In this document: positions 661-43,434 of the stretch, piece by piece
How positions within the stretch are numbered: position 1 is the stretch's first letter
Layout of the letters: every line of letters starts with the position of its first letter
Source of the DNA: Streptomyces sp. RPA4-2
Lineage (GTDB): Bacteria > Actinomycetota > Actinomycetes > Streptomycetales > Streptomycetaceae
NCBI RefSeq assembly: GCF_012273515.2
Contig: NZ_CP050975.2
Location: 8,928,001 to 8,992,000 of the forward strand
Direction of reading: 5' to 3'
DNA length: 64,000 nt
The notes under the pieces: model-generated
What the model was told of the DNA's origin: nothing
Seen by the model: the letters and a program-made list of their open reading frames with translations, nothing else
Databases searched by the model: none
Made by a program: the position numbers and the translations under genes

Positions 661-1917
661 CTACCCTGGTCCACCTCCGGGGTCGCCCGCGAGGCCGCCC
701 CGACCCCCTGATGCCGCGGGCGGCGGGTAGTCCTCGACGGTCATGGAGTTGTAGAGGCGTGCGCTCTTGGTGGTGAGGCGGACGAGGGCGCGGCTGGGGC
801 CCGCGGGCAGCGCGGAGATCAGGCGGGCGCCCTGGGCCAGTCCCAGCACGCCGAGGCGTGAGGTGGGGATCAGGGTCTTCGCCGCGCTCAGCGCGGCCGC
901 GCGGCTGCCGCGCACGTGCTCCACCATCGCGCGCTCGTAGGCGGGGAAGGCGCGCTCGTGGTTGCCGCCTGCCCGTGCCAGCTCTCCGGCGAGGACGTAC
1001 GCGCCGACGACGGCCAGGCTGGTGCTGCCGCCGACGGCTGGGCCGGGGCAGTAGCCCGCGTCGCCGACGAGCGTCACCCTCCCTTGCGACCAGGTGTCCA
1101 TGCGGAGCTGGGTGATTGAGTCGAAGTAGAACGCCGGGGTGCGGTCGAGCTCGTCCAGCCAGCGGTCCACCTGGGGGTGCATGCTGGCGAACGCACTGCG
1201 CAGCAGCTCCTTCTGCAGGGGTACGTCGTGGTGGTGGTAGTCGAGTTCGCGCTCGCTCCGGAACAGGAACAACGCCCGCGCGTCGCCGAGGTGCCGCGCG
1301 CCGTACATGCCAGCAGTGCGGCCGACGCCGACGTGGATGAGGAGCTCGCGGTCGAGGTCGGAGATGTTCGGCAGGGTCAGCACCCCGAGGTAGGCCCCGA
1401 TGAAGGCGTTGCAGCGGGACTCGTCATCGAAGACGAGGCGGCGCACGTTGGAGTGCAGCCCGTCCGCGCCGACGACCAGGTCGAAGCGGCGCGGCGCGGC
1501 GTTTTCGAACCGCACCTCGCCGTCGGGTGAGATCGCGGTGATCGAGTCGCCGAAGATGTACTCGACGTCGTCGTGTGCGGCGTCGTAGTAGATCTCGCTC
1601 AGGTCGTCACGCATGATCTCGGCGTGCCGGTCGGAGGTGGCGCTGAAGATCTTGGAGAGGTCCGCCCGGACGGGACGTCGTGAGCCCTCCCGGTGGACGG
1701 TCATCCGGTTGGTGCCGGTGGCCCGCTCCTCGACGCGCGAGAGTACGCCCATCTTCTCCGAGATGTTCATCGCGGGCCGAAACAGGTCGACCGCGTGGCC
1801 GCCGGTCTTGCGCAGAGCCGGCGCGCGTTCGACGACGGTGACGGAGAATCCGTGTCTGGTGAGCCAGTAGGCCAGCACCGGACCGGCGACGCTGGCGCCG
1901 GAGACAAGAATCCGCAT
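661..1917 (-). CDS. FAD-dependent monooxygenase (PHBH fold)
   Basis: A 418-residue flavoprotein that probably hydroxylates or epoxidises a small organic substrate using NAD(P)H and oxygen. The N-terminus carries the Rossmann FAD-binding element VSGASVAGPVLAYWL (residues about 5-19) followed by VVER. A DG-type motif (VVGADGLHSNVRR) lies near residue 155, and the second FAD motif GDAGYCPGPAVGG near 285. These are the three landmarks of the family. The ATG at 1915-1917 is chosen because AAGGAGGGG sits 4-12 nt upstream; an earlier in-frame ATG overlaps the end of the previous gene. It follows the alpha/beta hydrolase with an 18-nt gap, so the two are probably one transcript. The C-terminal 15 residues are Gly/Pro-rich and may be unstructured. 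The substrate cannot be read from sequence. Confidence 0.85.
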   Translation of the reverse strand: MRILVSGASVAGPVLAYWLTRHGFSVTVVERAPALRKTGGHAVDLFRPAMNISEKMGVLSRVEERATGTNRMTVHREGSRRPVRADLSKIFSATSDRHAEIMRDDLSEIYYDAAHDDVEYIFGDSITAISPDGEVRFENAAPRRFDLVVGADGLHSNVRRLVFDDESRCNAFIGAYLGVLTLPNISDLDRELLIHVGVGRTAGMYGARHLGDARALFLFRSERELDYHHHDVPLQKELLRSAFASMHPQVDRWLDELDRTPAFYFDSITQLRMDTWSQGRVTLVGDAGYCPGPAVGGSTSLAVVGAYVLAGELARAGGNHERAFPAYERAMVEHVRGSRAAALSAAKTLIPTSRLGVLGLAQGARLISALPAGPSRALVRLTTKSARLYNSMTVEDYPPPAASGGRGGLAGDPGGGPG

Positions 1918-1935
1918 GGCACCCCTCCTTGTCAT

Positions 1936-2793
1936 TCAGTCCACCCGTACGGCGTGGATCGCGGTGAAGGCCAGCAGGGGGGTGGCAGTCCGTGGCGGAT
2001 CCTCGAGCAGGGGCGAGTGCCCGAGACCGGGCAGCAGCTCGACCGTCGAGCCCGGAACGGCGCGGTAATCGGAGGCGGATGAGGAGCGCCATCTACGGTC
2101 GTCCTCGCCGAAGACCACCAGTAGCGGCTTACCCAGGACCGTCAGCCGATCCGGCAGCGCCCTCTGCTCCAGGTAGGAGCGGGTGGCCCGGGTCGTCGCG
2201 GTGAAGGTGTGGGAGGTCATACCGCGCACATCGTCCAGGAGCTCTTCTGGGATCTGGTAGCCCGCGCGGCTGAAACCCGTGCTTGCGAACCGCCGGAGCT
2301 GCTCGTCGGTCGGCGGCCACTGCGACGGGCCGGTTGCGGCGGAATCCGGTGCGATCAAGGCGTCCAGGCTGGGTCCGGTGTTGACGAGCGCGAGCGCGGG
2401 CACCAGGTCGGGCCGCTGTTCGGCCAGGGAGGTGGCGACCACGCCGCCGCTGGAATGACCGACGACCACGGCGTGCTCGACGCCGAGCCGGTCCAGTGCC
2501 ACGCCGGCCCGGCGTGCCTGGGCCGGGAGTGCGTAGCTGCGGTCGGCCGGTTTGGCCGACCGGCCGTGCCCGAGCAGGTCGATCCGGATGACGCGGTGAG
2601 ATCCGGTCAGCATCGGAACCAGCGGGTCCCACGAGCGGGTCGAGGATGCGGACCCATGGATGAGCAGGAGTGCGGGGGCGTCGCGGGGGCCGTCCTGGCA
2701 CACGTAGATGTCGTCGCCGTCCAGCGACAGGGTTGAACTCTCGGTGGCCGCGGCGCCGCCATTCCCGTACGAACCTCCGTCAGAAACAGTCAT
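1936..2793 (-). CDS. Alpha/beta hydrolase
   Basis: A 285-residue alpha/beta-hydrolase-fold protein. The oxyanion region LLLIHGSASSTRSWDPL is near residue 45. The nucleophile elbow GHSSGG is near 115, the acid candidate FGEDD near 230 and the catalytic His in LPGLGHSPLLEDP near 258. No signal peptide is visible, so it is probably cytoplasmic. It is the first gene of a leftward pair with the FAD monooxygenase and is divergent from an AraC-type regulator. That arrangement fits a small regulated catabolic or detoxification unit in which one enzyme oxidises and the other hydrolyses. Ester or lactone hydrolysis is likely, but haloperoxidase-type activity cannot be excluded. Confidence 0.85.
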   Translation of the reverse strand: MTVSDGGSYGNGGAAATESSTLSLDGDDIYVCQDGPRDAPALLLIHGSASSTRSWDPLVPMLTGSHRVIRIDLLGHGRSAKPADRSYALPAQARRAGVALDRLGVEHAVVVGHSSGGVVATSLAEQRPDLVPALALVNTGPSLDALIAPDSAATGPSQWPPTDEQLRRFASTGFSRAGYQIPEELLDDVRGMTSHTFTATTRATRSYLEQRALPDRLTVLGKPLLVVFGEDDRRWRSSSASDYRAVPGSTVELLPGLGHSPLLEDPPRTATPLLAFTAIHAVRVD

Positions 2794-2870
2794 GAGCCCA
2801 CTGTCTCCGCCGGTACGAGCCGGTGGATTGGACGAATGTTCCCCTTAGCCGGCTCACATATCATGGGAGG

Positions 2871-3776
2871 ATGCGGACCTTCATGCACGGTGCGGCTGTG
2901 TGGGACGTCGCTTGCCCGCAGCGCCCCAGCAGGGTGGCCGGTCTCACCATGGCCGGGTTCCGGGTACGTGCCCTGGACGCCCTCCGGATGGTCCCGCACC
3001 CGGCCGTGACGCTGCTCCTGGAGTTCGGCGCCGGCTCGCCCGTCCTTGACTGTGCCGCCGGGCGGCAGCAGCGGGGAAGCGTCGTGGCCGGGCCCGGGCT
3101 CGGGTCCGGAGGCGCGGTCCGGGCGTGGGGAGAGAACGTCGAGTGCGTGCAGGTGCGCCTGTCCCCGGTGATCGCACGCGCGGTTCTGGGTGCCTCCCCC
3201 GCCGACCTCGACGGCGCCGTCGTGTCCCTGGGTGACCTCTGGGGCCGGGAGGCCTCACGGATCCGCGAGCAACTGGGCGATGTCTCCTCGTGGGAGGATC
3301 GCTTCGCGCTGACGGACGCGCTGCTCGCCCGCCGGCATGAGGCGGGGCCGCCGGTAGACCCGGAGGTGGCCTGGGCCTGGCACCGGATCATCGGCAGCCG
3401 TGGCCTTGCCCGGGTCGACGAACTCGCGGCCGAGGTCGGATGGAGCCGTAAGCGCCTGTGGTCCCGGTTCCGGTCGCAACTCGGCCTGCCGCCCAAGCGC
3501 GCCGTGAAGCTGGTCCGCTTCGATCACGCCGCCCACCGCCTGGTCGCGGGTGAAGGCGCGGCCCACGTCGCGGCTGACTGCGGCTACGCCGACCAGTCCC
3601 ACCTGCATCGTGACGTCATGGCGTTCACCGGGGCAACCCCCGCGACCGTGGGCGGCGAGCTGTTTCTCGCCGTGGACGACCTCGCATGGCCCAGCCGCGG
3701 AACAACCGCCATGCCTCACGTCTCCAGGGAGCTCCGGCTCGGTCGTCGGCCGAAGGTGAGACGGCTACCGCTGTGA
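2871..3776 (+). CDS. AraC-family transcriptional regulator
   Basis: About 300 residues. The C-terminal third holds the two helix-turn-helix motifs of the AraC family: VDELAAEVGWSRKRLWSRF and, after a linker, HVAADCGYADQSHLHRDV followed by FTGATPATV. The N-terminal domain is a sensing module with no specific ligand signature. It is transcribed away from the hydrolase-monooxygenase pair and probably controls it. The start is uncertain. An upstream GTG at 2823, ATG at 2871 and ATG at 2883 are all in frame. GGGAGG at 2865-2870 touches the 2871 ATG and is 12 nt from the 2883 ATG. The last 30 residues are Arg-rich and extend beyond the usual family end. Confidence 0.8.
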   Translation: MRTFMHGAAVWDVACPQRPSRVAGLTMAGFRVRALDALRMVPHPAVTLLLEFGAGSPVLDCAAGRQQRGSVVAGPGLGSGGAVRAWGENVECVQVRLSPVIARAVLGASPADLDGAVVSLGDLWGREASRIREQLGDVSSWEDRFALTDALLARRHEAGPPVDPEVAWAWHRIIGSRGLARVDELAAEVGWSRKRLWSRFRSQLGLPPKRAVKLVRFDHAAHRLVAGEGAAHVAADCGYADQSHLHRDVMAFTGATPATVGGELFLAVDDLAWPSRGTTAMPHVSRELRLGRRPKVRRLPL

Positions 3777-3972
3777 CCGTCGCCGCCGCCGGGCTCCTGC
3801 AGTTGTGCGCCGGTGAAGCACGCTGGCTACGTGCTGGGCGACGACGTCGACGCCGGCTGGGCGCACCTCTGTACAACGAGTCGACGTCGCAGAAGACGAA
3901 AGCGCCATCAGCTCAACACGCTGAACCTGACAGAGAATTCTGTTGAAAGACACCCGCGGAAGTTCTCCTCAA

Positions 3973-4440: not shown

Positions 4441-4574
4441 CCCTGCGAGCAGCAGGTGCTGGTCGAACCGCAAGCCCGGGCCCGGGAAGCAGGCCCCGAG
4501 GCGGGCACGACGTGAACTCCAGACGACGCCCCAGGTGAGCTGAGGGAGCGCGCTTCCGCGTCTACGACGGGAAG

Positions 4575-4802
4575 ATGCCGATCGTGGCGACCACGCTGGA
4601 CCTGCGGCGCGAGCATGGCCCGGCCGGGGCCGCGTTCTGGCGCTTCGGCCGCAAGGACCGACAGAATCTCTGGGAAGCGATCGGCAACCCCCGCCGGGAC
4701 GCCGCCCGCGCCCACCGCGCCCAAGACGCGCGGCGCCGCCAAGCACGGGAAGCCGCCGAACGCGAGGCTCAGCGCCCAGGGTGCGGGGACTGCGGCACTT
4801 GA
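4575..4802 (+). pseudogene. 3' end of an unidentified gene
   Basis: This 75-residue frame has strongly coding third positions. The bias extends upstream of the ATG (RFRVYDGK before MPIVATTLDLRREH), so the true N-terminus is probably missing. An in-frame stop lies just before that stretch. The C-terminal half is a charged Arg/Ala helix (RAHRAQDARRRQAREAAERE) ending in CGDC. The function is unknown. Confidence 0.45.
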
Positions 4803-5901
4803 GTTCACCGGCGACCGGTGAAAGGCCAGCATCGCGGTCGACCGGGGCCGCGGGGACAGGCACCCGCACCTGTGCGACGACCCCAAGGCCCGGGCGCTGA
4901 CTGGCACGGCCCCAGGAGACCCAACGGCACGTCAGCTCCGGCGCGGACGCTTAACAAGCCTCAGCCGGCCGTACAAAGCAGCAGCCGTGACCAGAGTGCT
5001 CTCCTGGACGGTACCGGGCTGCCGCTGAGTAGCTCTCGCGTCGCGCCTCCTCCTGCAAGCCTGAGCTCCCGCCCTTCCCCAGCCGCGACCGGCGGCTCCA
5101 TCACGTCCAGCCGTCCGTGGCGCGGTGAAGCCCGCGGCCTACCCGAGGCAGGGCCTCCGCGCTCGCTGCCCGCGATAGACCTGCCACCGCTATCCCAGTT
5201 GGCAGCAGTACGTCGGCGGGTGAGAGCCCGAGACCGGGCGGGGCTCGGGCCCTCACGGAAATCGCGTGCCTACCCGTGGGGTGGTGCGGCCGCGATGTCG
5301 TGTCAACGATCGGTACGGGCCAGAGACACGGACTACCGCTGCGCCTGGTACCACCGACGACGCTCGGACCGCTAACTCACCATCGCTCTGCCTCGACGCC
5401 GTCGCGGCCGCCCCTTGTAGGCCCAAGCGTCGGGTGCCGCGCCTTGGGGGACTGTGCAAAAAATGCGTTCGCGCTGCGCCGCGAGGTCGATGCCAGCGTT
5501 CCCCTCGGGCACTGGCTGTCCTTGTACGTGTCTTGTGGGAGGTGTGCGCCTGAAGTGCCGCCTGCGCGGCAATTGCGCAGCTAGGCTGGGTCACTTGGAG
5601 CGCTGAGAGCCCGGAGCCAGAGAACAGCCCGGGCCCTCGCCCCCGCCCACGGGCTGTGGGGGACCCGTGTGCGGTGCCCGTTCAACGACAGCCGTTGCGG
5701 GCAGACACGCCGCGCCCTCTCCCCTCTGGGCGGCCGGAGATCGGCGCTCCCGACCCGGCCGACAGCCCCGCCAAGAAAGAAGGAGGAGCGGTGTGCGGCG
5801 CCAGACTCTGCCGTCCCCGACGGTCCGGCAGCCAGATCTCTCGAGCTCGCCGGGACGGTCGGGCGCCGATCAGGGGCCTCCGGTAGGCAGCCATACAGCG
5901 A
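4803..5901. other. About 1.1 kb without a supported gene
   Basis: Frames on both strands are Arg/Pro-rich shadows with no steady codon bias and no family motif. GC-rich inverted repeats occur near 5224-5252 (GAGCCCGAG / CTCGGGC type). Nothing else was found. Confidence 0.5.
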
Positions 5902-8058: not shown

Positions 8059-8192
8059 CAGAAAGCCGAGTGGGCTCGGATCCACAGGGGGCAGCCACTG
8101 CGCTACGGCCGCGTCCGCGGGTGGTCGGCGGGAAACAAATTCACTTCCGTGAACACACAACACGACGATATGCACTTATTGTTACTTTTCAT

Positions 8193-8741
8193 GTGTTGAC
8201 GCTCGCCGCGGTGATTCTCTTGCTGGTAGGCGGGGCGGTGGAAGGGACTGCGGTCGTGAGTGGTGGGCAGAGTGGACGACCCCGGTTGCTGATGGCCGCG
8301 GAGACGGCGGCGCCGGTGGAGGCGGTCGACGTGATTGCGGAGGACCTGCGGCGGCGTTTCGAGGCCACGAAGGTGTCCCCGCAGGGCCGCCGGAACACCG
8401 TTGTCGACGAGGGGCTCCTCAACGAGCTGGAGCGGCTCCGGCGAAGCGGTGAGCTTCCCGTTCTCAGGCTACGCATTCAACAAGTCCCACACCGCCGGCG
8501 ACGGACTCGTCTTGGCCTCGTCGTACTGGTTCAGCCGCAGCCGCGTATGGATGCCGTCGTGGAACTTCTGCCACTCGGCGGCCAGCCGCGCCACGGGCGG
8601 TCGGCGGTGACCGGCCCGGCTTGTCTTCGAGTCGGCCGCCGGCAGCGTCCCGGACTGCGGACGTCAGCACCAACGCGGTCCCGCGGGTGCAGGCCGGCGA
8701 CGGCACCTTCAGCCTGGACGTGCCGGCGGCCGGCGCGCTGA
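8193..8741 (+). CDS. Doubtful ORF with one hydrophobic segment
   Basis: Third positions are GC-rich from 8193 to about 8475. The frame starts with a possible signal or membrane anchor (VLTLAAVILLLVGGAVEG), followed by VDVIAEDLRRRFEATKV. The second half runs antisense to a better-supported secreted-protein gene and is probably not translated as such. It may be a truncated gene whose true 3' end was lost at the junction near 8450. The function is unknown. Confidence 0.25.
   Translation: MLTLAAVILLLVGGAVEGTAVVSGGQSGRPRLLMAAETAAPVEAVDVIAEDLRRRFEATKVSPQGRRNTVVDEGLLNELERLRRSGELPVLRLRIQQVPHRRRRTRLGLVVLVQPQPRMDAVVELLPLGGQPRHGRSAVTGPACLRVGRRQRPGLRTSAPTRSRGCRPATAPSAWTCRRPAR
8449..8511 (+). pseudogene. 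DnaE-like scrap
   Basis: One forward frame reads FSGYAFNKSHTAG and then DGLV. This resembles the conserved F-x-x-Y-x-F-N-K-S-H-x-A-G-Y-G-x-V block of bacterial DNA polymerase III alpha subunits. Similarity stops on both sides, so if real it is a very short recombined fragment. The identification rests on memory of the family motif. Confidence 0.35.
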
Positions 8742-8796
8742 AGATGAGTCCGGTGAGAGCGACCGTGACGGCCGCGGCGGCAAGACGTGCGCGCAA
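8469..8796 (-). pseudogene. Frameshifted small secreted protein
   Basis: The start is a TTG preceded by AGGGAG about 6-9 nt upstream. It is followed by a clear signal peptide (RARLAAAAVTVALTGLIFSA, then PAAG). The mature part begins TSRLKVPSPACTRGTALVL. The frame then becomes poor, while the next frame reads ARLAAEWQKFHDGIHTRL and RLNQYDEAKTSPSPAVWDLL up to TAG at 8469-8471. The interval is 328 nt, one over a multiple of three, so a single-base indel would join both halves. It could be a sequencing error. The family is unknown. Confidence 0.55.
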
Positions 8797-8992: not shown

Positions 8993-9211
8993 TCAGGGGC
9001 TGAAGCGTTGGCGCATGTCGAGGTAGCAGCGCAGTCGTACGCCGGGCTGTCCGAGGTCCCGGGTCGCGCGTTCCACCGAGGTAGCTGCCCACATTCCGGT
9101 CAGGGTCGCCTGGAAGGCGAAGGCGGTCTGGTCGTCGGCGGCTGCCACGTCGACCACGACCAGACCGGGCTCCGATACGTGTACTTCGTTGATCGCTTCC
9201 ACACCCGGCAC
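8993..9211 (-). CDS. DUF6207 family protein
   Basis: A 72-residue protein starting at GTG. The core VEAINEVHVSEPGLVVVDV and AADDQTAFAFQATL are followed by GQPGVRLRCYLD, which matches what I remember of DUF6207, a small streptomycete family of unknown role. There is no signal or membrane segment. It stands alone, antisense to the upstream region of the nuclease-like gene. Confidence 0.65.
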   Translation of the reverse strand: MPGVEAINEVHVSEPGLVVVDVAAADDQTAFAFQATLTGMWAATSVERATRDLGQPGVRLRCYLDMRQRFSP

Positions 9212-9459
9212 GACGCACGGCCGCAGGCAGAGGGTTCTCCCGCCCGCGGCAGCTCACCCGATCGGCCCGGTCATGTTCCGCGATGGCGCCGAGAGCAGTG
9301 AGTCCGCGCCGTCTCGGAGTTCGGTCTCTTCCCGAACGCCCCATTGCAGGGGGCTCGTTGAGGACATGTTGTATGGCTTTGATCACTCTTGGGCGCACAG
9401 GACACCACAAGAGCACGGGTTGTTACTTTGGCCGCGACCGTGATCATCAGAGGGCATTT

Positions 9460-10236
9460 GTGAAATCTGTCAGATGGGCTCTGTCTGCCGTTGTCAGCAT
9501 GCTTGCCGTGCTGCTTTCACCGGCGACGGCCGTCAGTGCCAGTGAGCCGGATCCGTCCGACATCCGGTACACGGCGACCTACGCGCCGCTGGAAGATTCG
9601 GGCCCTGTCCCGCACGGCGCTCGGCCGCAGCATCTTTTGCTGGCAGTGCCGCAGGTCCGAGGCCACCTCGCGGTCAACTACCACGATGTGACCCACAATG
9701 AGTGCGTCACGCACGGCAACAGCGCTGGCAAGCCCGAGTGGGTCAAGAACCACTTCGCCCTGTGCCGCCGCGGCACCGTCCAGGTCGTCGCTGTCGACGT
9801 GGAGACCGGCACTCCTGTCGGCACCCTCACCTACGTCGAGACGATCATCGGGTACGCCTTCCAGGGCGAGCTGTCCGTCCTGTTCGAGTAGTACATCGAG
9901 AAGATCAACACCACCGGCACCATCAAAGACACGACTACGTTCTTGATCAACTGGTGGAACCAGTCGAGTGCCACAGGCGCCGTTCTGCACAAGGGGCAGA
10001 AGCACGGGGGCTTCACGCAGGTCTCGGGTGGCTTCCGCGGCGAGGTCGGCGCGGCGCAGGAGGACGCCAGCATCAAGGGTTGGAAGAGGGAGAGCAGGGA
10101 GCTGCTGCCCTTCGACGAAGGCGCGGCCTCCGGTACCGGCCGCGACAAGGTCCACACGTACGACTTCGTCCCGGCCACCTTTTTCATCGCCAAGGGCAAC
10201 AAGAACGTCCAGACGCAGGCGGGCCGCTCAGCTCGT
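9460..10236 (+). pseudogene. N-terminal half of a NucA/NucB-type secreted nuclease gene
   Basis: GTG at 9460 is preceded by AGAGGG at suitable spacing. A signal peptide follows (VKSVRWALSAVVSMLAVLL, cleavage near VSASEP). The mature part contains THNECVTHGNSAGKPEWVKN, HFALCRRGTVQVVAVD and PVGTLTYVETIIGYAFQGE. These resemble the N-terminal region of streptomycete proteins that end in a NucA/NucB deoxyribonuclease domain. An in-frame TAG at 9889-9891 interrupts it, and the same frame then continues (YIEKINTTGTIKDTTTFLIN) to about 10230. The expected C-terminal domain is not downstream; it lies on the opposite strand at 10244-10640, as if that half had been inverted. Almost certainly non-functional. 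Confidence 0.65.
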
Positions 10237-10243
10237 GCGGGAG

Positions 10244-10640
10244 TTACTTCACCTTCACGTAGAAGGCGTCACCGTCGAGGATGCGGTCGTCGTTGTACCA
10301 GGTGGCGAGCCGTGATCCCGCCTTCTGGTTGTCCGTGCTGTCCAGGGCCCGGGCCGAGTAGTTGCCGTTCGCGTTCTTGGCCCCTTCCTTCGTGGTACTG
10401 AACGGGTATTCGTCGCAGTCCTTGCCGCCGGCGGAGTAGTTCGGCCACCTGGCCTGGCACGCCGCCCGCGCGGTGTCACGGTTTTGCCTGCGCAGCGTGG
10501 CGTCGTAGGAGATCCGGTGCAATGGCGTCGTGGTGGGGGCGCCGGGGATCTCCTTGCCCGTCTTGGCGGGGATCGTGGTCGCCGGATGATTCTGGGCGTC
10601 CCAGATGTGCTGAGCTGTCTCGTTGACCACGGGGTCACTT
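10244..10640 (-). pseudogene. NucA/NucB nuclease domain, inverted half-gene
   Basis: The leftward frame reads DPVVNETAQHIWDAQNHPAT, then TGKEIPG, PLHRISYD and the catalytic-domain signature KDCDEYPFSTTKEGA. NYSARALDSTDNQKAGSRL and DDRILDGDAFYVKVK follow, ending at TAA. This is the complete C-terminal NucA/NucB domain, but no start, ribosome site or signal peptide precedes it. Upstream it runs into transposase-derived DNA. It is convergent with the N-terminal half on the other strand. The simplest reading is that one gene was broken and its 3' half inverted. Confidence 0.75.
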
Positions 10641-10754
10641 CGCGCACAAAGTCGGTTCTGCGGCGAGGCCGGCGGGGCTGCCCAGGACGGGGAAGACGCC
10701 GCGGACGCGGGCTCACTCCCGGCCCTCCAGCAGGTGCAGTCCCGGCAAGGACAG

Positions 10755-11555
10755 CGCCGGGTGATGCGGCGTCCGACACCCTCCCGCAAAGAGTTCAGCC
10801 TGGCCAACCCCAAGGGCGGCCGACCGCCCAAGCACGGCAGCGAATTCGTCTTCGGCGATCCCAGAACCTGGGGCACCGGGCAGGCCGTGACGGCCACGGA
10901 CACGCGGCTTTATGGGAAGGCGACCGCGCAGGCGTGGGACCGGCTGCATCCGCGGCTGACCCGACGGGCGGTATGGCTCGGCCACGACGGGCCGCCGCCC
11001 GTCATCGAGGGCACCGTCATCCGCCTGGCCGTGGAGAAGCTGCCCAGCGGCAGGGTCAACAAGCCGGTATGGCTGTGGTGGTCGCGCACCGGCGCCACCG
11101 AAGCGGACGTCGACCGCTGCTGGCACTCCTTCCTCCGCCGCTTCGACATCGAGCACACCTTTCGCCTGTTCAAGCAGACACTCGGGTGGACCAAGCCCCG
11201 GCTTCGCAGCTCCGAGGCCGCCGACCGGTGGACGTGGCTGGTGATCGTCGCCTTCGCCCAGCCCCGCCTCGCCCGCCTGCTGGCCACCGACCTTCGTCGG
11301 CCCTGGGAGAAGCCGACCCCGCCAAACAAGCTCACGCCCGCCCGGGTCCGTAGAGGGTTCAGAAACCTGCGCACAAAGACCGGCTCCCCGGCTGGTGCAC
11401 CGAAACCTTCCCACCCGGGTCCGGGCCGGCCACCCGGATCGAAGAACCAGCGATCGGCACCCCGCCACGACGTCGGGCGGGTCCTCGCCACTGGTGAGGC
11501 ATACGCCCGGCCAGCCCACCACAAGATCGGCACCAAACCCCGCCGCGGCGCCTGA
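10755..11555 (+). pseudogene. 5'-truncated transposase (NF041680-like)
   Basis: Recognisable sequence begins near RVMRRPTPSRKEFSLANPKG and runs through RPPKHGSEFVFGDP, LYGKATAQAWDRLHPRLT, the EADVDRCWHSFLRRFDIEHT DDE-type region and KQTLGWTKPRLR. It ends at the Pro-rich GRPPGSKNQR tail. This is the C-terminal 60 percent of a widespread streptomycete transposase; the N-terminal part (about 200 residues) is missing. Sequence before about 10745 is unrelated and holds the inverted nuclease half. The element cannot transpose by itself but may mark the breakpoint of the local rearrangement. Confidence 0.75.
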
Positions 11556-11622
11556 GCTTCCACCCGCGCGAACCTCCAGGAAGCCCACGAGGTTGGATAG
11601 CTCCGTGGTGCGACGAGAGCGC

Positions 11623-11916
11623 GTGACGAAGAAACGGCCTCCCTTCGGCATGCCGAGAAGCATCGTCCTGCTGGCGACGCCGGAAGGCTGGCGCCACAGT
11701 GTTCTCACCGAGGAAGGCGCGATGCTCTGCGGACGCCTTGCCGACGTGGCGGCCAACACCGACCCAGCCGAGGCACAGGCCGCCGTGGCTGCCATGGTGG
11801 TCGGACTCGCACACGACTTCCACGAAGTCGACGTCGATGTGACCTGGGATCCGCCCCGGGAACCCGGGTCCTGGACAGCTCAGGTTGCCGTTGCCACGAC
11901 TCCACCGAGCGCCTGA
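11623..11916 (+). CDS. Small hypothetical protein
   Basis: About 97 residues: RSIVLLATPEGWRHSVLTEE, GAMLCGRLADVAANTDPAEA, then VDVDVTWDPPREPGSWTAQV. It is soluble, with mixed alpha/beta composition and good codon bias. GTG at 11605, 11608 and 11623 and ATG at 11650 are in-frame starts with no strong ribosome site. It resembles small streptomycete proteins of unknown function. It lies just after the transposase remnant and may have lost its own promoter. Confidence 0.55.
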   Translation: MTKKRPPFGMPRSIVLLATPEGWRHSVLTEEGAMLCGRLADVAANTDPAEAQAAVAAMVVGLAHDFHEVDVDVTWDPPREPGSWTAQVAVATTPPSA

Positions 11917-12012
11917 AGTTAAACGACAAGGTGAGTACCTGTTCCATATCCCCGTGGTGCTCCTCTGACAGCGCGGTCCGGGTCCATGTAGCGTCAGTGC
12001 CAGGGGGATGAG

Positions 12013-42234: not shown

Positions 42235-43434
42235 CTATCGGCCGGCCCGAGTGTGGGTGTGGCGGCCGTCGTAGTGGGGGCCGTGCCAGTCGAGGCACAG
42301 CACGGTGGCGTCGTCGGCCAGGCGGCCGTCGAAGGCGTCGGTGACCGCCGTTGCCAGGACGCGCACGACCTCGCGGGGATGTTCGGAGGCGGTGTTACGG
42401 ATCAGGCTCGGCAGGTCGACGGACTCGGCCTGTCGCTCCTGCATGCCGTCGGTGTAGAGCAGGAGGCGGTCGCCAGGGCGCAGGTCGAGGTCCTGTACGT
42501 GGTAGCGGGTGCCTCGGGGCGCGCCGAAGAGCACATCGACGTCCAGACGCACCTCGCTCACCACGCTGTCGCGCAGGAGCAGCGGCCAGGGGTGTCCGGC
42601 ATTGACGAGCTGTGCGCCGGTTCCGTCCAGGGCGACGCGCAGGAGCTGGCCGGTGGCGAGGGCGTGGTGGCCGTGGTCGAGGAGAGCCTGATGGATCCGG
42701 CGGGCCTGTTCGGCCAGGTCGGCGCCGTCGCGGCGGGCGCCGCGCGAAGCGTTGACCAGGAGGGTGGCCATGAGGGCGGCGTTGACGTCGTGGCCCATGG
42801 CGTCGGTGATGGACAGGTGCAGGATGTCGTGGTCGAGGGTGTAGTCGTAGGTGTCCCCGGCGGCGGATTCGGCGGGCACGAGGGACGCGGCGAGCGCGAA
42901 TTGTGCGGCTTCGCAGGAAGGCGCGTCGGGCAGGAGCTGTCGCTGGATCTCGGCGGCCAGGCTGAGCGGGGTGGCGCGCTGCCCCAAGCGGAAGAGGTCG
43001 GTGAAGCGGCGGTCGGTGACGATGATGTACGCCAGCGCGTGTGCGGCCTCGCGGACCTCTTCCAGGATCTCCCGGCTGACCTGGGGCAGGGACAACTCCA
43101 GGACGCCGATGGTGTCTCCGCGGTGGGTCACCGGGGCGAGCACCCGCTGCCCGTGCCTGGCATCAGGGGCCTGCACCAGCTCCTGGGCAAGCAGCACTCG
43201 GTCGTAGGCGCTGCCGGCCAGCTGGATCCGACTGGCGTGGCGGCCGAACTGCGAGGCGCTCCCCTCGTCCAGCCGCACCATCTGTCGGCCGGCGACATCG
43301 ACGAACAGGAACGACACCGCCCGCGCGCCGAACCGGTCGCGCAGATTGCGCGCCACCACTGCCAGAGACGCCCCCGGCGCCGCGTCCTCCGCTGCGGCGA
43401 GCAGCCCAGTCAGCCCGAACGGGGCACCCGGCAT
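42235..43434 (-). CDS. SpoIIE-like PPM-family serine phosphatase
   Basis: 399 residues; ATG 43434 has GGAGG 5 nt upstream. The N-terminal half is a GAF-like sensing region ([40 protein letters not shown]). The C-terminal half is a SpoIIE/RsbU-type phosphatase. It contains [56 protein letters not shown] with metal-binding Asp, [13 protein letters not shown] and [27 protein letters not shown] near the end gives the last metal Asp. Such enzymes dephosphorylate anti-anti-sigma proteins in actinomycete stress signalling. The partner is not in this window. Confidence 0.85.

Follow-up and report, generated by a model that had tools for sequence, protein, structure and literature searches.

The window analysed here, a stretch of 64,000 nucleotides from Streptomyces sp. 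RPA4-2, occupies positions 8.93–8.99 Mb within a single-contig genome of 9.86 Mb that is 100% complete, about 0.9 Mb from one contig end. On its forward strand, positions 9460–10212 carry, in place, the 5' part of a gene encoding a NucA/NucB-domain protein, as recognised by protein and DNA matches to relatives. The frame opens with a GTG codon at 9460 and its N-terminus resembles a signal peptide as judged by eye. It is interrupted by an in-frame TAG stop codon at 9889–9891, where all ten relatives have a glutamine at the aligned position, and in alignment with the relatives it remains recognisable past this stop up to 10212, where the homology to intact relatives ends after 251 codons of the gene. 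The sequence-only reading of this locus had described a signal peptide and the N-terminal region of a secreted nuclease extending to about 10230; the region is present and its N-terminus looks signal-like, but the homology falls short of that boundary, and the stop codon had gone unmentioned. Pfam searches with the two pieces of this half returned no family above the cut-off (the first piece gave no match, the second a single one below threshold with an E value of 0.14), and we identify the half as the N-terminal region of a nuclease because full-length relatives match it. At the DNA level, positions 9365–10212 are 79.7% identical to the plasmid pRLB1-9.2. Across 150 genomes of the genus, the second part of the forward half (117 residues) found a match at E ≤ 0.001 in its own genome only.

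The 3' part of the gene, comprising the NucA/NucB catalytic domain and a TAA stop codon, lies inverted on the opposite strand at 10244–10639. The stop codon is read at 10246–10244, the homology to the gene ends at 10639, and the last 131 codons plus the stop are kept. This half scores 48.3 bits against PF14040, above the family cut-off of 23.8 (E = 1.5e-12, profile positions 21–99 of 100), and no signal peptide was seen in its frame, which bears out the earlier description of a NucA/NucB domain without start or signal running from about 10640 to 10244. NCBIfam returned no family for the reverse half or for its relatives P0003 and P0006, and the DNA of 10245–10627 matches the opposite strand of pRLB1-9.2 at 80%. 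The Asp-Glu pair and the metal-binding Asn of the catalytic half align with those of Bacillus NucB (PDB 5OMT, 110 aa), in a weak match (E = 0.056) outside of which the His equivalent falls; the active site of BlNucB includes Asp93, Glu94 and Asn117 (PMC5758888). Unlike in the Bacillus protein, the domain here forms the C-terminal end of a longer protein and is inverted.

In order to place the two halves with respect to each other, they were compared with a common set of relatives. The forward half, with an X at the position of the stop, found 14 proteins at E ≤ 0.001, 11 of which carry PF14040 (P0010, P0011 and P0015 do not); in a separate comparison with these 14, the forward half matched all and the reverse half 13, missing the 146-residue P0015. 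By identity, both halves are closest to P0006 from S. mirabilis (341 aa), on which residues 77–251 of the forward half cover positions 1–175 at 93% and the reverse half positions 211–341 at 96%, both gapless and collinear, with E values of 7e-113 and 2e-94 in the database of 14 proteins. Because both pieces fall on one protein at 93% and 96%, this match is not due to chance. Likewise, the halves match P0002 and P0003 (419 aa) at 75–80%, with forward residues 1–251 covering 1–253 of P0002 (75%) and the reverse half 288–419 (80%), and throughout P0002–P0005 (418–420 aa) the forward half lies within residues 1–254 and the reverse half within 287–420. The best bit score falls on P0002 for the forward half and on P0006 for the reverse half, a difference that arises because the P0006 entry starts internally, so that the N-terminus is absent from it. 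In a first set of 29 distant loci the two halves again correspond to different ends of shared proteins, one to the N-terminal and the other to the C-terminal part; the best loci differ (L010 for the forward half, with weak scores, and L011 for the reverse half). In P0006, in WP_164331307.1 of pRLB1-9.2 and in P0003 of Streptomyces sp. NPDC003710, the same protein extends over both halves and is annotated as one, whereas in the window the gene is broken in two, with one part reversed, 105 bp missing and a stop codon in its frame. Comparison at the sequence level thus confirms two parts of one NucA/NucB-domain gene with the 3' part reversed. This supports the initial proposal of a gene split by inversion of its 3' half, for which a collinear full-length match had been suggested as a check; the halves, searched apart and unjoined, do fall collinearly on the same full-length proteins, P0002–P0005.

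Not counting the stop, 15 of the 305 residues aligned with P0006 are substituted in the window. Five of these, all in the forward half, replace a residue common to P0006 and at least eight of nine other relatives, and in another two columns P0006 is the outlier, the window sharing the residue of most relatives. To assess the substitutions at the codon level, we counted base changes at codon positions 1:2:3, which amount to 25:15:37 in the forward and 8:8:25 in the reverse half of the window, to 12:9:25 and 5:5:13 in pRLB1-9.2, and to 23:15:21 and 7:9:15 in the genome G255, whose nuclease relative has an uninterrupted frame. Third positions thus account for 37/77 (forward) and 25/41 (reverse) of the window-specific changes, compared with 21/59 and 15/31 in the open G255 copy. 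By this test the broken copy does not stand out from the intact ones, and the result speaks neither for nor against decay; the locus is classed as a pseudogene because of its lesions, and the substitution pattern does not bear on that status. The small number of differences from P0006, together with the single stop codon, suggests that the gene was lost recently.

The rearrangement is not a clean flip. Neither half covers residues 176–210 of P0006, which correspond to 35 codons (105 bp), and a search of the organism's own genome at E up to 10 did not find them either. Between the halves lie 31 bp (10213–10243) that could not be placed by comparison with the targets or with the genome itself. 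Allowing up to 3 mismatches, we found them nowhere else in the genome, so that a captured insert is not demonstrated. When the stretch, taken as 32 bp, was compared in both orientations with six targets, it scored clearly above its shuffles with none of them (for the best target, the minus strand against the 3' flank in pRLB1-9.2, 31 of 300 shuffles were equally good), and the flanks of two intact genes, which at the DNA level are no more than 78–80% identical, offered nothing that convincingly matched the 31 bp. Since on the minus strand they come directly after the reversed stop codon, they may be the gene's own 3' flank, moved along with the flip. The breakpoints were placed approximately, against DNA references of this same 78–80% identity, the nearest relative P0006 being compared as protein, and aligning the junction with MAFFT gave no further information. 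At the ends of the inversion, no inverted repeat exceeded chance expectation: the best score was 14 compared with a mean of 14.4 for 1000 random pairs of the same spacing, 650 of which reach 14. A scan of 10150–10820 yielded 28 short imperfect inverted pairs with scores at chance level, one of them 17 nt long and 76% identical with arms at 10226–10242 and 10599–10615. Of the earlier picture of a plain inversion, the reversal therefore stands, but 105 bp are lost, 31 bp at the junction are unplaced and a stop codon is present. With the TAG at 9889, the 3' part reversed and 35 codons gone, no single continuous frame with a secretion signal exists.

The sequence at the far breakpoint, between the end of the nuclease gene and a transposase fragment, is a shard of another gene (10640–10757, minus strand), phosphotransferase-like by eye, whose right boundary lies between 10712 and 10757. 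It is clear over 10642–10712, with 80–87% identity over 60–76 nt in seven loci fetched from among the DNA-search matches listed; Pfam gave no phosphotransferase match for two representative relatives, one of which matched DUF6417. It is followed on the plus strand by the C-terminal fragment of an NF041680-family transposase (10758–11552, model positions 202–436 of 439), in agreement with the sequence-only reading, which had noted a truncated transposase about 100 bp further on. The fragment scores 286.9 bits against a cut-off of 440 and lacks approximately the first 214 of 494 residues; its similarity begins at 10758 in DNA (85–87% to two plasmid copies) and at 10731 in protein. After the fragment comes an apparently whole hypothetical gene (11605–11936, gene 11605–11913), and the same order is found on an S. 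anulatus plasmid with an NF041680 transposase.

The transposase had been put forward as a possible cause, and an insertion-sequence event flipping the 3' half would fit a fragment that begins some 90–120 bp from the breakpoint, as well as the genome G370, where a 447-aa frame, transposase-like by eye, lies in the DNA that interrupts a relative of the nuclease gene. We nevertheless consider it improbable. The transposase here is itself a fragment without its 5' part, a shard of another gene separates it from the breakpoint, so that contact between the two is unsupported, and a search of the genome gave no second copy for recombination, the other match reaching only 72% over 150 nt.

An error of assembly or polishing, with the true chromosome uninverted, is quite improbable as well. 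Small local inversions can arise in assembly; however, the genome is complete and in one contig, no repeat that might mislead an assembler was found at the ends, and a flip together with a loss of 105 bp, unplaced sequence, a stop codon and further shards is an unlikely set of features for an assembler to produce.

It would similarly be conceivable that pieces of two paralogues, acquired separately, came to lie tail to tail by chance, an alternative that the initial reading had itself raised. NucA/NucB genes are common in the genus, with several in some genomes (a match in 59 of 150 genomes, and, when the reverse half was the query, in 123 of 392), and by bit score the best proteins of the two halves differ. 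By identity, however, both halves are closest to P0006, which they cover in complementary fashion without overlap, and P0006 searched against the genome at E up to 10 finds only the two halves and one match with an E value of 0.66, that is, no other copy. Because the pieces do not overlap, share their closest protein and have no further genomic copy beside them, we regard an origin from two paralogues as very unlikely.

A reversible within-gene inversion switching the nuclease on and off, of the kind reportedly described as within-gene invertons by Chanin et al. in 2024, would likewise place part of a gene in inverted orientation and would agree with a catalytic half that is open and flipped in place, but it is hardly credible here, because no repeat in inverted orientation exceeds chance at its ends and, after flipping back, the 105 bp would still be absent and the TAG at 9889 still in place, so that the full frame would not be restored.

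The surroundings of the nuclease locus are broken as well. A gene for a PP2C-family phosphatase is present as three scattered shards: its 5' flank and first 21 codons at 8105–8378 (plus strand, 87–90% to four plasmid copies), an inverted internal piece of the same gene at 8623–8748 (minus strand, clear over residues 334–354 and weak over 305–354, with 8623–8695 at 88–93% to the four plasmid copies), and a displaced 3' piece at 4899–5086 (plus strand) that holds residues 366–391 and the 3' flank according to DNA and protein similarity. Some 2 bp separate this last shard from the end of a cut gene of the replication-relaxation family (4534–4896, plus strand), which is matched in two frames and stops about 120 bp short of where its relative ends. 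On the four plasmids (L086, L128, L129 and L130) each PP2C copy is open over all 391 residues, and on pRLB1-9.2 an intact nuclease gene and the PP2C gene lie about 2 kb apart. A DUF6207-like gene at 9193–9005 looks whole. Since the PP2C and replication-relaxation genes nearby are also cut, displaced and partly reversed, the inversion in the nuclease gene is, on the sequence comparisons, one of several breaks in a region holding pieces of plasmid-type genes. Part of the window is plasmid-like and undisturbed, as a 3.1-kb block at 675–3803 (FAD monooxygenase, alpha/beta hydrolase and helix-turn-helix genes) is collinear at 91% with a plasmid of Streptomyces sp. NBC_01462. Far downstream, 42244–43359 (minus strand) carries a second PP2C-like stretch of 375 residues in one frame, 56% identical to the relative of the broken gene.

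Taken together, the locus is very probably a pseudogene of a secreted NucA/NucB-type nuclease in which the reversed 3' piece was rejoined by end-joining repair of double-strand breaks. Two or more such breaks would have cut the nuclease gene and its 3' neighbour; the freed piece, consisting of the gene end and perhaps the 31 bp of 3' flank, would have been rejoined backwards by non-homologous end joining after trimming of its ends, and other ends, including the shard of the neighbouring gene and the transposase fragment, would have been joined alongside. For Ku, the genome contains one match (156.8 bits). In a study on S. ambofaciens, end joining of induced breaks is described with five inserts of 30 bp to 18.8 kb, those at the central site measuring 30, 42 and 83 bp and the 30-bp insert matching the 5' end of a transposase gene, while breaks in the chromosome arms led to large rearrangements (PMC5869714). 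Those scars are like the one described here in having a deletion at the break, and may also correspond to it in their short inserted sequences; they differ in that those were induced, with the short inserts at the central site, whereas the present one is natural, lies in an arm and includes a reversed piece, which, like the word 'inversion', has no occurrence in the text available (PMC5869714). Literature searches on intragenic inversion gave no bacterial case by title, and none was found for pseudogenes in combination with illegitimate recombination. As a tentative extension that we think rather unlikely, a plasmid-derived segment containing the nuclease, PP2C and replication-relaxation genes may have shattered in a single burst, with this flip as one of the joins, its fragments being put together again on the chromosome arm at random in both order and orientation. 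If true, it would be the bacterial equivalent of chromothripsis, with a record kept to the single base; among the matches listed in a search for Streptomyces with chromothripsis, none has the term in its title or abstract.

To see how widely the nuclease subfamily occurs, we analysed the distribution of its relatives. In 392 genomes of the genus (reverse half as query, and P0006 at E ≤ 1e-30), matches of at least 70% identity occur, among the matches listed, in four genomes: that of RPA4-2 itself, G255, G243 and G370. In the 12 kb fetched from G243 only the last 76 residues of the relative are present (L117, 6216–6443; 78%), with a TGA in frame, and in G370 the gene (L118, 6274–8222) is interrupted by the DNA with the 447-aa frame, about 1.46 kb in length, near both ends of which there is a 17/18 inverted match. 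Within 100 relatives of G255, only G255 itself matches at E ≤ 1e-50. Among the 24 loci that a scan of contigs with P0006 gave, L062 is the best match of full length, at 39%, and L073 (Streptomyces sp. NBC_01549) a partial one at 70%; viral contigs contributed one distant locus at 34%. A protein search of plasmids at E ≤ 1e-20 gave 21 records, with pRLB1-9.2 at 83.6% and the other 20 below 60%. With 9300–11000 as DNA query, 132 of 296 relatives matched; among the matches listed, these are mostly to the transposase or gene-shard parts, and those to the nuclease domain reach about 67–75% over longer stretches.

No functional nuclease product would be expected from the locus, because the forward product ends at codon 143 without a catalytic domain and the catalytic half has neither a signal peptide nor an evident start. 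It looks more like a dead gene than a new system, and it is ordinary in kind, the gene family and the kind of event both having been described before. A gene split by inversion is nonetheless easily annotated as two unrelated genes, and at this locus the catalytic half is enough by itself to be scored as a NucA/NucB domain. For Streptomyces, the locus offers a naturally formed and still legible example of the scars expected from laboratory break-repair experiments; several joins fall within about 7 kb, and comparison with relatives could put them in order. For the nuclease subfamily, the damaged copies in three of the four genomes, a small number and among the matches listed, suggest that it may often be lost.
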